DNA of 60,424 nucleotides from Erysipelothrix sp. (GTDB lineage: Bacteria > Bacillota_I > Bacilli_A > Erysipelotrichales > Erysipelotrichaceae). Below, one piece after another: positions 2,410-8,080 of the stretch. The notes under the pieces were generated by a model, which saw nothing but the letters and a program-made list of their open reading frames with translations, had not been told where the DNA came from and ran no database searches. Within the stretch, counting starts at the first letter, position 1. Every line of letters starts with the position of its first letter. The stretch spans positions 1 to 60,424 of the forward strand of contig JAAZDW010000003.1 of the NCBI GenBank assembly GCA_012512595.1, in the 5' to 3' direction. The translations under genes were made by a program, and so were the position numbers.

Positions 2410-3123
2410 TTAATCTTTCCATTTAACCAAAATATCTGAATCAACCATTTGTGCATCAAATCTAAAATGTGCTGTAACATTCGCTCTTTTTAGGTAATCT
2501 TCTTCCCTTTTTGTTTGACCACCATTATGGATAATATATACTTCACCTTTTTTATTTCTTTTATCCGAAACAATTCCAATATGTTTATCATTATCAAAAA
2601 TTATAATGTCTCCTGCCTGCCACATAGCATGATCTTTTTTATCAATTGAAAGATTTTGGGCATACTCTTGAAAAAATACTCTTAAATTTTTCACTCTTCT
2701 AAAATCAATATTTTTATCGCGTTTATTTATTTCTTTATAAACATCAGGTCTTTTAATAATATCTTGATTTACCATTTCTTTTAATGAATATCCCGCTTGC
2801 CTAAAAGCTCTCCAGATTACATCTGTACAAACACCAACATTATCTGGCGGATAGCCACCATCATAGTATCTCCCATCATATTTAGGGCGGTTATTAGCAT
2901 CTATTTTTGCCCCTTGCAAAAAATCTTGATTGTCACTAATTCCATTATTATTAAAGTCAATATTACTGTTAATAGTTTTTATATCAAAGTCTTCATTTGT
3001 ATACATTTTTTTTGGAATTAAGTTATACAAGTTTGTCAAGTAAAAAGTGAGGCTTAAAATTAACAGCAGTGTTATTGAATAAGTAATTGAATTTTGATTT
3101 TTTATTGTTTTAAATCTTTTCAT
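2410..3123 (-). CDS. DUF1287 family protein, membrane-anchored
   Basis: The 237-residue product begins with a basic stretch followed by a hydrophobic segment at about residues 14-33, consistent with an uncleaved signal anchor that places the rest outside the cell. The remainder matches the DUF1287 pattern: YYDGGYPPDNVGVCTDVIWRAF, then IDFRRVKNLRVFF, then WQAGDII and a conserved histidine in the KHIGIVSD and IIHNGG motifs. The Cys and His resemble the arrangement of NlpC/P60-type cysteine hydrolases, so a peptide or cell-envelope hydrolase role is plausible, but the family has no established function. It overlaps coaX by 14 bases, which indicates translational coupling. Confidence 0.85.
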   Translation of the reverse strand: MKRFKTIKNQNSITYSITLLLILSLTFYLTNLYNLIPKKMYTNEDFDIKTINSNIDFNNNGISDNQDFLQGAKIDANNRPKYDGRYYDGGYPPDNVGVCTDVIWRAFRQAGYSLKEMVNQDIIKRPDVYKEINKRDKNIDFRRVKNLRVFFQEYAQNLSIDKKDHAMWQAGDIIIFDNDKHIGIVSDKRNKKGEVYIIHNGGQTKREEDYLKRANVTAHFRFDAQMVDSDILVKWKD

Positions 3124-3925: not shown

Positions 3926-3962
3926 AAATAAAACCCAAAGTATTTATTGGATACTCCGGGTT
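3926..3962 (-). terminator. Intrinsic terminator of the Tad operon
   Basis: A 12-bp stem without mismatch, counting two G-U pairs (AACCCGGAGTAT with ATACTTTGGGTT), has a 7-base loop and is followed by TTATTTG. The left arm overlaps the last codons and stop of the TadE-like gene. It separates the pilus operon from coaX. Confidence 0.85.
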
Positions 3963-4273
3963 AGCGACTTAATACTAGCGGTTGTTTTAAAATTGGCAAC
4001 AGGAATACTAACCTTGAAATTGACAAATACCATATATTTATCATCAATTTGATTAACATTAAAGCTACACTCTTGACACCTAAGCTTTGATTCAGTGATT
4101 AACTGTTTTATATCATTATCATAGCGGTTGTGTCTTTCTATTATTGAAATTATCGTTTCTTGATACAATCTTGCATTGTTATAGCGAAGCGTTGTCTCAA
4201 CCATTGAAAATCCCAACAAGACAAAGGTCATCCCAACTAAAATTAATAAATATGTTTCAAAAGCCCCTTTCAT
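3944..4273 (-). CDS. TadE-like pseudopilin
   Basis: The 109-residue product starts MKGAFETYLLILVG, a very short basic leader followed at once by one hydrophobic helix (about residues 7-27), with a Glu at position 6 next to the helix as in Tad pseudopilins. The rest is a soluble domain with two cysteines in a CQEC motif near residue 65. It lies directly after the Flp-like pilin gene (stop TAG immediately followed by this ATG) and is the last gene of the Tad operon. TadE-type proteins are minor subunits of Flp pili or their secretion machinery. The exact subtype (TadE or TadF) cannot be told from the sequence. Confidence 0.75.
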   Translation of the reverse strand: MKGAFETYLLILVGMTFVLLGFSMVETTLRYNNARLYQETIISIIERHNRYDNDIKQLITESKLRCQECSFNVNQIDDKYMVFVNFKVSIPVANFKTTASIKSLTRSIQ

Positions 4274-4420
4274 CTAATTACCCTCTTCTGTCATATTATC
4301 CCACATTGAGTTTAAATTAGTCGTCATCGTATCTTTAAAACTATTAGAAAATATTATCATTCCAGTTGCAATTATTGTAACAACTAAAACCATCCCATAT
4401 TCTTCGAAAAATGCTTTCAC
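4274..4420 (-). CDS. Flp-like pilin, 48 residues
   Basis: This small gene fills the space between TadC and TadE. The start is a GTG at 4420 that overlaps the TadC stop as GTGA; the frame ends in TAG at 4274, directly before the TadE ATG. The 48-residue product begins MKAFFEEYGMVLVVTIIA, then has a polar, acidic tail with one Trp (SMWDNMTEEGN). The Glu-Tyr pair at residues 7-8, just before a hydrophobic helix of about 16 residues, is the signature of Flp major pilins, and the size fits mature Flp pilins (about 50-60). No longer leader or classical processing glycine is present. Position, overlap and composition support a real gene; the pilin role is inferred. Confidence 0.75.
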   Translation of the reverse strand: MKAFFEEYGMVLVVTIIATGMIIFSNSFKDTMTTNLNSMWDNMTEEGN

Positions 4421-5184
4421 ACTCCTACCCCCTCTCTAAATAAGTTAGTTAACAAACTTGCCATAATAACTAAAAAAACAAAGGTGACGCCCATTAAAGG
4501 GATAATTCCGATCCATTCAAAATATGTTAATTTATTTTCTTGTCTTGTCATTCTTTCTTGTCGAATCCATTTTGTTGTTGAGGCAATCATTCTATTTAAT
4601 TGCTTATATGATTCATCTTTATCAACAATATAACAACGATATAGAAGTTTCATAGCACGATTTACTTCAGATATTTTAAATGAATCCATAAAGTCAGCAA
4701 AAGCTGCAAAATTATTGGGCGAAATACTTAGTGTTTCTATTAACTCTTTTAAGTCATTTTTAATTATCGGGGGTGCCAACGGTAGAGATAAAATTAATGA
4801 GTTAATTACGTTATTATTGTGAAGTAGGATTTGAATTTGTCTTAGCCATATTGGAAATTGATATTTAACAAAATTTAAATCCTCTTGATACATTTTTTTT
4901 AAATTGTTATATGGTTTTTTATAAGTGAAGTATGTGAGCAATAAAATCCCGATTAGAAAATAAATATTGAATCTTAGTAAAGGCAAAAATAATATAAAGA
5001 AGAGGATTCGACTACTCTTAATATATCTATTTCTTTGAAAAACTTCGAAATTTTGATCTTTTTCATATCTCAGCAACATAACTAAATCCTTTTCATAAAG
5101 ATAGTTTATAAAAAAAGCACTTATAGTTTTTTCAAACAAAAACAAGGCTAAAACAATAGGAATAAATATGATCGCAGTAATCAT
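4417..5184 (-). CDS. tadC: TadC-like inner membrane protein (GspF/T2SSF domain)
   Basis: The 255-residue product has paired hydrophobic segments near the N-terminus (about 1-20 and 60-88), a central soluble helical domain (about 105-220) of the T2SSF type, and a final membrane helix (IIPLMGVTFVFLVIMASLL). This is the two-gene TadB/TadC architecture of the membrane platform of Flp/Tad systems, which couples the CpaF motor to pilin assembly. It overlaps the tadB gene by 4 bases and the pilin gene by 2-3 bases, so the proteins are translationally coupled. It ends in TGA. Confidence 0.85.
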   Translation of the reverse strand: MITAIIFIPIVLALFLFEKTISAFFINYLYEKDLVMLLRYEKDQNFEVFQRNRYIKSSRILFFILFLPLLRFNIYFLIGILLLTYFTYKKPYNNLKKMYQEDLNFVKYQFPIWLRQIQILLHNNNVINSLILSLPLAPPIIKNDLKELIETLSISPNNFAAFADFMDSFKISEVNRAMKLLYRCYIVDKDESYKQLNRMIASTTKWIRQERMTRQENKLTYFEWIGIIPLMGVTFVFLVIMASLLTNLFREGVGV

Positions 5185-6041
5185 AAACTTTCACTACTTT
5201 CAATCCATTTTGAATTTAAAACTGAAATTGAAGTAACGTAGGTAATTATTTGTACTAAACAAAAGATGAAAATTGAAATTTGGTAATTTATAACACTAAT
5301 TTCGATGTCAATTGATAAAATCATTTTTAAAGCCATAAAACAAATAAATAAAGCGAAAATAATTAAGACTGTAAGTTTAGTAATTATCTTATTTTTATTA
5401 TAATTATAAGCTGCAACATCTTCAACCCAATCATCAACATCATCTTGAATTAAATCAAGTGCTTCATAGTACTCAGTCGTTCCATACTGCTCTATGCTAT
5501 AAGCTAAACTGTGTAAATTATGAATTATAAAATGTGGGTAAACTATTGTAATCGCATTTAAACTATCAAAACTACTGTGACCATTTTTAATGTTTTCAAT
5601 GCTATTATTTACTAAGCTGTTTAATTGTCCAGAAACTGTATTTTCAATTTCAATTAAGGTTGGATATATTTTGGGATATGTTTTAAAAACCATGATAAAT
5701 TGATTTATATAAATAATCAGATTATTAAAATTGTACTCTTGTTTTTGATAATTTAGTCTCCAGACAACAATTAAAGGTAAAAGTAAAACACTTACTATGA
5801 TTAAAGTTATTGTAAAGATCATATTTAATTTGAAGGCAATTGCCATAAAAATAATAAAGCCAAACATCGCAATTATATTAAAATATAGTTTGTACAAAGA
5901 CAAACTATTATTAGTATTAAATACTCTGTATAGGTTTATTATGCCTTTGTGTGAGATTGGTATTAATTTTAATATTTCTCGTTGTTTTTTAAATAAATAC
6001 AAGTAAACAAGCAAAATTATAAAACCACTCAAATAAATCAT
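5181..6041 (-). CDS. tadB: TadB-like inner membrane protein
   Basis: The 286-residue product has an N-terminal membrane helix (about 1-15), two adjacent helices at about 55-110, a soluble helical domain (about 115-220) with the LYSIEQYGTTEYYEALDLIQ stretch expected of T2SSF platforms, and two C-terminal helices (about 222-275). With the tadC gene (4-base overlap) it forms the membrane platform of the Tad apparatus. The gap to the upstream cpaF gene is 30 bases. The sequence is diverged, so the call rests on size, topology and position between cpaF and tadC. Confidence 0.82.
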   Translation of the reverse strand: MIYLSGFIILLVYLYLFKKQREILKLIPISHKGIINLYRVFNTNNSLSLYKLYFNIIAMFGFIIFMAIAFKLNMIFTITLIIVSVLLLPLIVVWRLNYQKQEYNFNNLIIYINQFIMVFKTYPKIYPTLIEIENTVSGQLNSLVNNSIENIKNGHSSFDSLNAITIVYPHFIIHNLHSLAYSIEQYGTTEYYEALDLIQDDVDDWVEDVAAYNYNKNKIITKLTVLIIFALFICFMALKMILSIDIEISVINYQISIFIFCLVQIITYVTSISVLNSKWIESSESL

Positions 6042-6071
6042 CTCAACCCCCTTGTATAATAATTATCATTT

Positions 6072-7016
6072 TTATATTAAACCTTTTTTGTGGGTATAAA
6101 TAGTTTTTGTATGATAAGTACTGTCTTTTACAAAAAACTTACATACTTGATCAATGTAGCGACTAATCCCTTCATCTGAAATGTTTGACCTAATATGAAC
6201 ACCATAGTTAATACTTTCATGAATATTATATAAAAGCTTGTCATTGGTAATTTCATTGCCTGGAAACATGTGTAATATACGTTGAGGTATCGTTTCTGCG
6301 TTATCAGCATGAATAGTACTAATAAGATTTGCACCTGTAGAAACAGCTTGTAATAGCTCAACTACTTCATCGCCTCTAACCTCTGATAGCAAAAGCCAGT
6401 CCGGTCTTTGTCTAAGGCAAGCCTTTATAGCTTGTCGATAATTTAAATTAGCATTAACTTTGAGCATTAAACCATCTTTATCAGGATGAATATTACTATA
6501 TCTAATTTCTAAACTGTCCTCAATGGTAATTACCCGTTGGTTTGCTTTGATAAATGAAGTTAAAAACTTTACTAATTCTGTTTTGCCAACCCCTGGCAGC
6601 CCACTAATAATAATATTGCTGCGCTTTTCAACTAATGTTTTTAAAAAGTTGATTAAGTCTAAACTAGCATAGTTTTGCTTTAGTAAAAGTTCAGTATTTA
6701 AACGCATAACTGGTGGCGTTTTTCTAATTGAAATACTATAGCCTGATGCAGCAATGCTTTTATGAATAATACTTATTCTTAAATCTTTAGTTTCACTTTC
6801 TAAAATAGGATAAGAATTATTGAACTGTTTATTGCTATAGTTGGCCACTTTATAACAAAACTTTTCTAAATCAACTTCACTTATATTAATTGCTTCTTTA
6901 AAACGACCTTTTTCAAGATGGTCTACCCAAAGAGTATTTCCATTGTAATTAACATCTGTAATCTTCTCATCGCTGATAAATTCTTTTAAAAATTCAAAGT
7001 CAAAGTCATGGTTCAT
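6072..7016 (-). CDS. cpaF: CpaF/TadA-family secretion ATPase
   Basis: The hexameric ATPase that powers Flp/Tad pilus assembly at the cytoplasmic face. The 314-residue product has the family order: an N-terminal domain (ISDEKITDVNYNG), the ASGYSISIRK strand, Walker A GLPGVGKT at residues 139-146, an acidic box (ITIEDSLEI), Walker B followed by the LSEVRGDE motif, and the STIHAD His box. It is shorter than most CpaF proteins (about 400-450), lacking an N-terminal extension. It overlaps the upstream CpaB-like gene by 11 bases. The motor domains are intact, so it should be active. Confidence 0.93.
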   Translation of the reverse strand: MNHDFDFEFLKEFISDEKITDVNYNGNTLWVDHLEKGRFKEAINISEVDLEKFCYKVANYSNKQFNNSYPILESETKDLRISIIHKSIAASGYSISIRKTPPVMRLNTELLLKQNYASLDLINFLKTLVEKRSNIIISGLPGVGKTELVKFLTSFIKANQRVITIEDSLEIRYSNIHPDKDGLMLKVNANLNYRQAIKACLRQRPDWLLLSEVRGDEVVELLQAVSTGANLISTIHADNAETIPQRILHMFPGNEITNDKLLYNIHESINYGVHIRSNISDEGISRYIDQVCKFFVKDSTYHTKTIYTHKKGLI

Positions 7017-7722
7017 AATTAATATATTCCAAAATCAAAGCTTCACTATTGAACGTTGATTCCATCTGGTCACTTGCTTTGGTTGAATATGCAACTAACT
7101 CTACTTTTGCTATTTCATCAGCACTTCTTATTATCGGTAAAAGTTTTTGATCAATAGCCAATAAAACTATATGTGGTACTCCATTACTATCAGGATGGCT
7201 GACATCGAAACCTTTTTTATCTTTTACTCCGATTACTCTCACAGCTTTAATCAAAAGGTCTACAATTGGTTTTTCATTTCTTTTATGATAAGTTGTGTAA
7301 ATATCTACCTTTTGGCCAACGACAATTGAATTTCCAGAAAGTTTAATTAAATCAGTTGCCATATTATATGCAACTTGTTGATCATTTAAAAGTATTGCTG
7401 GATAATCAGGTAAATCCTTTTCTTCAAATAATAGTTCTTTATAAAACAGTGATGAAGTCGGCATTAGTGCTCTAATGTCCGTATACTTATTAATAATGTC
7501 TTTTTTGTCAAGATAAAATTTATCATTGACAAAAATACTGGGAACTTCAATAAAAGTTATATCATCTTCACTAATTTTACTTCTTGGATGAATTGTTTCT
7601 TTTACTACAGGAATTTTAATTAAATCTACTTCTCTTTTTAAAGCAATATTGAAAATAAAATAATTGAGTAAAACAACGATGACGACACTAAAACCAAATA
7701 GAACATTCTTATTTTTCGGCAT
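7006..7722 (-). CDS. cpaB: CpaB/RcpC-like protein with SAF domain
   Basis: The 238-residue product has a single N-terminal membrane anchor (about residues 7-27), then an SAF-type domain (KIPVVKETIHPRSKISEDDITFIEVP, then IRALMPTSSLFYKELL) followed by a beta-rich region (GNSIVVGQKVDIYTTY) as in CpaB/RcpC. In Gram-negative bacteria CpaB acts at the envelope together with the secretin; here there is no secretin, so the protein probably works outside the membrane in pilus assembly or envelope interaction. It overlaps the gene before it by 14 bases and cpaF by 11. Confidence 0.85.
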   Translation of the reverse strand: MPKNKNVLFGFSVVIVVLLNYFIFNIALKREVDLIKIPVVKETIHPRSKISEDDITFIEVPSIFVNDKFYLDKKDIINKYTDIRALMPTSSLFYKELLFEEKDLPDYPAILLNDQQVAYNMATDLIKLSGNSIVVGQKVDIYTTYHKRNEKPIVDLLIKAVRVIGVKDKKGFDVSHPDSNGVPHIVLLAIDQKLLPIIRSADEIAKVELVAYSTKASDQMESTFNSEALILEYINYEP

Positions 7723-8080
7723 TTACAATCTCCTTTTCTATTAAGGTTTCTTCTAAAGTAAAACTATACAAATTATTTTTACTTTTACAAGTCATTTTGA
7801 TTCTAACTAAAAGTGGCTCTGCGCTAAATCCCAACAGTTCAAATTGATAATTAAAGTTTTCTGGTAAAGATCCTTGTATTTCGCTAATAAAAGTATCAAT
7901 TACCCTTGTTTCATCAATGTCAGATTCACCATGTAAGATATTTGCGGTTTGAAATAGTGAGTTTTTTAAATTATTATTAATAAAACTGCGATTATGATCA
8001 TAACTCACATACCAACCTAAGCTTATAAATGTAGCAAAAATCAAAATAAAAAAAGAAGTACTAAAAATTACTCCTTTCAT
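7709..8080 (-). CDS. Minor pseudopilin-like protein, first gene of the Tad operon
   Basis: The 123-residue product starts MKGVIFSTSFFILIFATF, with a very short leader and one membrane helix at about residues 5-24, then a soluble domain of about 95 residues ending in acidic and basic repeats (EETLIEKEIVNAEK). The architecture matches TadE-type or DUF5411-like pseudopilins found in Firmicute Tad loci, though the Glu seen near the start of the TadE-like protein is missing. It overlaps the CpaB gene by 14 bases, so it belongs to the operon. The function within the pilus is inferred from position. Confidence 0.65.
   Translation of the reverse strand: MKGVIFSTSFFILIFATFISLGWYVSYDHNRSFINNNLKNSLFQTANILHGESDIDETRVIDTFISEIQGSLPENFNYQFELLGFSAEPLLVRIKMTCKSKNNLYSFTLEETLIEKEIVNAEK

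Follow-up and report, generated by a model that had tools for sequence, protein, structure and literature searches.

The window analysed here, a 60,424-nucleotide stretch of DNA that makes up contig 34 of its host genome, carries seven open reading frames on the minus strand, running from position 8080 down to 3944 in the order psp1-CpaB-CpaF-TadB-TadC-Flp-TadE (Table 1). Successive genes are joined by a 14-nt overlap, an 11-nt overlap, a 30-nt gap and two 4-nt overlaps, and the Flp and TadE frames abut directly. The operon is closed by an intrinsic terminator with a 12-bp stem (-14.3 kcal/mol, z = -3.1), the stability of which was unmatched by any shuffled sequence. The reading frames and the folding of the terminator against shuffles bear out the original prediction of seven genes in this order forming a compact operon with a terminator, and inspection of the locus likewise upholds its statement that no secretin, TadZ or prepilin peptidase adjoins them. 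Within the operon, neither TadZ/CpaE nor TadD was found on inspection, and the ORF list holds no separate adhesin gene. Downstream of coaX, window positions 2410-3123 encode a possible wall hydrolase, a DUF1287 protein (PF06940, 2e-52) that also matches CHAP weakly.

Table 1 Features of the Tad-type operon, in window coordinates
Feature	Position	Strand	Description and basis
psp1, pseudopilin-like	7709..8080	-	123 aa; N-terminus MKGVIFSTSFF; ORF, AlphaFold model
CpaB/RcpC-like envelope protein	7006..7722	-	238 aa; TIGR03177, PF16976, PDB RcpC 9gzr
CpaF/TadA-like secretion ATPase	6072..7016	-	314 aa; PF00437, PDB CpaF 8rkd, tree
TadB-like platform protein	5181..6041	-	286 aa; position and same-slot homologues
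TadC-like platform protein	4417..5184	-	255 aa; weak T2SSF match and same-slot homologues
Purine-rich ribosome-binding region	4421..4435	-	GAGAGGGGGTAGGAGT; immediately upstream of the Flp start; sequence
Flp-like major pilin	4274..4420	-	48 aa; GTG start; MKAFFEEYGMVLVV...; alignment, register test
TadE-like minor pilin	3944..4273	-	109 aa; starts MKGAFETY; alignment, register test, AlphaFold
Intrinsic terminator	3932..3962	-	5' arm overlaps the end of the TadE gene

Sequence profiles firmly identify two of the products. Specifically, CpaF matches the T2SSE family (Pfam PF00437, 5e-29) and, by profile, the CpaF structure 8rkd in the PDB (2e-43), and it carries the Walker motif GLPGVGKTE. CpaB is matched by TIGR03177 (5.5e-9), PF16976 (2e-5) and, by profile, the RcpC structure 9gzr (1.9e-7), the TIGR03177 and RcpC matches lying under the curated family cut-offs, yet consistent. 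No family profile solidly matches TadB, Flp or TadE taken singly; TadB has no match of its own kind in Pfam or NCBIfam, and the names of all three rest on position and on conservation across relatives. The TadC product has a weak match of its own (T2SSF, 0.05), and its homologues occupy the same slot in relatives, most of which carry two membrane proteins with weak or absent family matches in the TadB/TadC slots. PDB profile searches with Flp, TadC and TadE found little.

The host genome comprises 954,570 bases in 35 contigs and is estimated to be 66% complete. Its closest named relatives are two MAGs filed under Erysipelothrix, with CpaF proteins 62-65% identical, which taxonomy assigns to the Erysipelotrichaceae, and contig C1 carries a gene whose product reads as a cell-wall transpeptidase, a penicillin-binding protein. 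The host, an Erysipelotrichales bacterium, is small, probably walled and no mollicute, and the earlier description of the genome as mollicute-like does not hold beyond its low G+C content and small size. Across 196 genomes of the order, no secretin was found above cut-off, though many of them keep CpaB, and secretin loss in monoderm Tad systems has been described by Denise et al. (PMC6668835). The retention of CpaB in the absence of a secretin, which had been singled out as notable, is therefore ordinary, because the host has one membrane.

The same gene set is widespread. Relatives of CpaF with 32-65% identity over their full length occur in many of the 196 genomes, and the core psp1-(CpaB)-CpaF-TadB-TadC-Flp-TadE recurs at about 48 distinct loci in the order, often beside coaX; in some branches flp has moved upstream, or genes have been fused, duplicated or dropped. 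Also present in this order are full Tad loci, in which CpaF is longer and an A24 peptidase gene is linked. Decay from such a complete locus, as the missing TadV, TadZ, TadD and secretin and the small genome might suggest, is a very improbable origin for the operon: similar gene sets, with undamaged reading frames, ribosome-binding sites and terminator, are widely kept, and in the CpaF tree the proteins of the full loci are all split off by one branch with support 100/100. This tree includes two rows that are not Tad CpaFs (L100 ComGA and one L103 ORF) and gave long-branch warnings, and the full-versus-minimal split is the one feature used from it. The minimal Tad core, the existence of which is supported by its recurrence, is thus a real, conserved, secretin-free system derived from Tad, and no relic.

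Two other arrangements were observed along the way. In family f12, which belongs to another order, a homologous Tad core is followed by T4SS-like genes (L135, L136, L138), so that the two kinds of gene stand next to each other, among them a T4SS pilin (PF18895, 0.001), a TrbL-like gene (9e-5) and a VirB4-like AAA_10/TraG P-loop gene, and it is preceded by a protein of ~870-1000 aa and, in some cases, a sortase. In genome G054 (L041:9289-10839, L141/L124), the start of flp seems to be interrupted by a serine-recombinase element that carries phage-like genes at its distal end: TadC ends at one junction, and the other holds TadE together with flp residues 7-47.

The main oddity of the operon, which the original prediction did not mention, is the apparent lack of leaders on its pilins. 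Its Flp-like pilin is the best conserved product (mean pairwise identity 65%; CpaF, compared at fewer loci, reaches 54% and the remaining products 24-33%). The window Flp starts MK-AFFEEYG..., and residue 3 aligns with position +1 of mature Flp, which puts a Lys at the -1 position. In an ungapped comparison with the mature Flp of full Tad loci this register is the best and scores 16.4, on a short match that consists of EYGL plus hydrophobicity. The same register is returned by hhalign of minimal-locus Flp against the Flp of full loci (4.4e-5) and by a weak match to the PilA filament chain 8u1k. Upstream of the start codon, an in-frame stop is reached after 5 codons (RGGRS), and in relatives a strong Shine-Dalgarno sequence, AAAGGAGGTGA, stands immediately before the flp start. 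M1, K2 and E7 are invariant in 30 aligned homologues, an invariance that is partly built in because the pattern by which the rows were chosen already required K/R at position 2, E/H at 7 and Y/F at 8. Type A proteins, the type to which the window Flp belongs, also occupy the same operon slot and carry E7-Y8-G9 in 19/19 cases. Minimal loci encode Flp as MK-AFFEEYGLVLVV and the TadE-like protein as MK(G/A)xxE(F/Y)..., whereas full loci encode, for instance, MKNWLLDESG/QGMVEYGLIIALV and ...KSESG/QAMLEYALTILMF (slashes mark cleavage sites). As such, neither Flp nor TadE of the minimal loci has, in its best register, a class III signal peptide with Gly at -1, and the leader of the pilin appears to be missing from the gene.

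Several of these residues could be read differently. Flp might be an ordinary prepilin with a short leader, MKAFFEEYG, which a shared ComC would cut after Gly9 to leave a mature pilin that is devoid of Glu5. The canonical leaders of the order are similar (MKNWLLDESG and NNFFEDERG; L111: FFEDERG/AADIV), and a Pfam Flp1_like match, below cut-off, spans residues 11-47 (E 0.03); most relatives have one A24 peptidase, and systems can share peptidases (PMC6668835). However, placing Gly9 at -1 lowers the register score to -0.9 in type A and to 5.9, against 13.8 for the leaderless register, in type C, and it gives up both Glu5 and the EYGL match. Gly9 itself, though invariant in the 19/19 type A homologues, is not found everywhere that E7 is, being Ile in L095 and several different residues in the paralogous subunits of L088-L092. 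A short leader would also leave TadE and psp1 unexplained, neither of which has a conserved Gly at such a place. We therefore regard this alternative, the main rival of pilins translated without a leader, as rather unlikely. The Flp of family f12 (MKAATGELNLT...), which is also devoid of a normal leader, was left out of this claim because its register is ambiguous, as Gly6 could be its -1 residue.

Other unusual Flp genes were seen among the relatives. In one genus (L098, L104, L106, L107), flp appears to begin with an ATA codon that follows a strong, well placed Shine-Dalgarno sequence, the alternative being a GTG three codons upstream. The L088-L092 branch carries several Flp-like paralogues of 48, ~145 and ~35 aa that mostly start M(K/R)xxxx(E/H)Y, and genome G031 (L139, L140) encodes four proteins of 220-330 aa with a leaderless Flp-like N-terminus (MKKFFEEYGSVAIIVIV), distant from any Tad locus.

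The other two small subunits can be compared with this pattern. In the TadE-like protein, E6 aligns with Glu5 of TadE, and the best register, with a modest score, has residue 2 at +1 and the initiator Met in the place of Gly-1; its AlphaFold model (pLDDT 77) consists of a helix over residues 2-48 and three strands. The psp1 model (pLDDT 84) has a pilin-like topology, with an N-terminal helix over residues 2-49 followed by three strands. Fold searches of the PDB with the two models gave no match, pilins included. The M1 and K2 of psp1 are invariant in 18 homologues, and Lys2 is invariant across all three subunit families (psp1, Flp and TadE-like). Since psp1 has no Glu5 equivalent, it is likely to be a minor or tip subunit; nor can a register be assigned to it.

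The distribution of prepilin peptidases bears on how these pilins are handled. No A24 peptidase is linked to the minimal core at any of the ~48 loci, over flanks that mostly reach 6-8 kb to either side and in some cases stop at a contig end, whereas 6/6 full Tad loci examined in the order have one. Two A24 genes are found in 13/14 genomes with a full-type CpaF versus 3/42 minimal-only genomes (Fisher 4e-9, in a test that ignores relatedness and uses counts taken by hand), and nearly all relatives have one. Linkage and counts per genome thus point to a minimal system that has no dedicated peptidase. A search for TadV elsewhere in the host genome, as the original prediction had proposed, found none in the incomplete (66%) assembly.

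Neither Pfam nor a family profile that does find divergent members in other genomes revealed an A24 gene in three MAGs of the genus, and the single weak A24 Pfam match in the genus falls in an ORF that reads as a PAP2-type phosphatase. No loss of the peptidase is claimed, because all three MAGs have ComGC with a normal leader, which suggests that a peptidase exists. These three MAGs, namely the host genome (contig C1, L005:9252-10702), G151 and G196, combine intact ComG prepilins with no detectable A24, which reflects either a chance gap or a very divergent peptidase. The A24-negative f12 genomes were also dropped as natural knock-outs, as canonical prepilins are seemingly kept there too, and an empty-slot test for comC failed, as its neighbours differ between relatives.

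With Tad (type IVc) pili, such as those built by CpaF/PilA in Caulobacter or from Flp1 in Aggregatibacter, the operon shares CpaF, CpaB/RcpC, a putative pair of TadB/TadC-like proteins, a short Flp-like pilin and a TadE-like protein; it differs in that TadV, TadZ and a secretin are missing from the locus, and in that Flp and the TadE-like protein have no leader or Gly-1 in their best register. The CpaF/TadA ATPase, short Flp-type pilin and CpaB/RcpC are Tad traits that the operon has, whereas a dedicated TadV was found neither beside the minimal loci nor in the incomplete host genome, and the secretin RcpA, a diderm trait that is unexpected in monoderms, in no genome of the order above cut-off. 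The machine would work like a Tad pilus, but because a class III signal peptide was looked for and, in the best register, not found, the operon is filed as a Tad variant and not as a canonical member. Closer at hand, the full 13-gene tad locus of Bulleidia extructa, which begins with tadV (PMC12786226), and L079, L110 and L112-L114 belong to the same order and have a homologous core and an EYGL-motif Flp. Unlike the operon, the full loci compared here have a linked A24 peptidase, an extra protein of ~400 aa before CpaF, a CpaF of ~450 aa and leaders of the type ESG/QGMVEYGL. Gram-positive tad-like loci of Clostridium kluyveri and others, described by Imam et al. 2011 as having tadV, tadZ and rcpC and no prepilin motif (PMC3244431), likewise have no recognisable prepilin signal, a likeness drawn from their description. 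No report of leaderless Flp pilins was found in the open-access literature.

The host genome also encodes a second assembly system. A ComG operon that looks complete lies on contig C1, flanked by efp and a metallo-beta-lactamase-like gene, a neighbourhood that has also been described in Bulleidia extructa (PMC12786226). The ComG pilus similarly uses an ATPase and a membrane platform to assemble pilin-like subunits, but it lies at a separate locus, has one platform protein and is made from canonical G/FTLLE pilins, which in the host retain leaders of the MRKG/FTLLE type. The Tad operon is not a ComG locus, as the ComGC-type prepilin and the MBL/efp neighbourhood are found on contig C1. DNA uptake, which had been among the roles first suggested for the operon, is thus unlikely, and, because uptake is served by its own pilus, attachment to surfaces or other cells is the likely role.

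On balance, we lean towards a Tad-type filament machine of a monoderm whose pilins are made nearly mature, with Lys2 perhaps substituting for the N-terminal amine, as far as can be judged from sequence. Sequence supports the CpaF ATPase, the CpaB/RcpC-like envelope protein and three short subunits that each have a hydrophobic helix at the N-terminus. In this machine, CpaF would power a TadB/TadC platform that draws Flp subunits out of the membrane to build a thin filament. The minor pilins, acting at the tip or in priming, would be psp1 and the TadE-like protein, and CpaB would guide the fibre across the wall zone, there being no secretin. It is quite unlikely that the products instead form a membrane-spanning short pseudopilus or an export or sensing complex: type II secretion pseudopili rely on the same kind of core, the operon has no separate adhesin and its subunits are small, but Tad pili typically use a Flp-like subunit of ~48 residues that has no globular head, and here this subunit is also the most conserved product. 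In ordinary filaments, Glu5 pairs with the N-terminal amine of a neighbouring subunit, a tip subunit has no Glu5, and cleavage depends on Gly-1 (PMC10191384, PMC4471445). With Flp translated as MK plus the mature sequence and TadE with Met in the place of Gly-1, Lys2 may offer the Glu5 of a neighbour the positive charge that otherwise comes from the freed amine. This charge-replacement role is speculative: Lys at position 2 occurs in 14/74 long ORFs of the host genome, and it also fits a positive-inside membrane topology. Because the pilins would be translated nearly mature, cleavage by a prepilin peptidase at the usual site would be neither possible nor needed.

The small size of the operon is by itself unsurprising; what was not met with in the literature searched is the apparent absence of prepilin leaders. 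Type IV pilins are defined by the cutting of their class III signal peptide behind Gly-1 and are taken to require it (PMC4471445, PMC10191384). More tentatively, and with somewhat less confidence than doubt, the findings may extend to a whole lineage of Tad-type filaments built from never-cut, leader-free pilins, in which processing is dispensable when Lys2 replaces the freed amine. Pilins without leaders would account for such proteins possibly being overlooked by motif-based pilin finders, and the operon offers a very small core for reconstitution. A natural filament that forms without leader cleavage would make the roles of cleavage and of the contact between Glu5 and the N-terminal amine testable.
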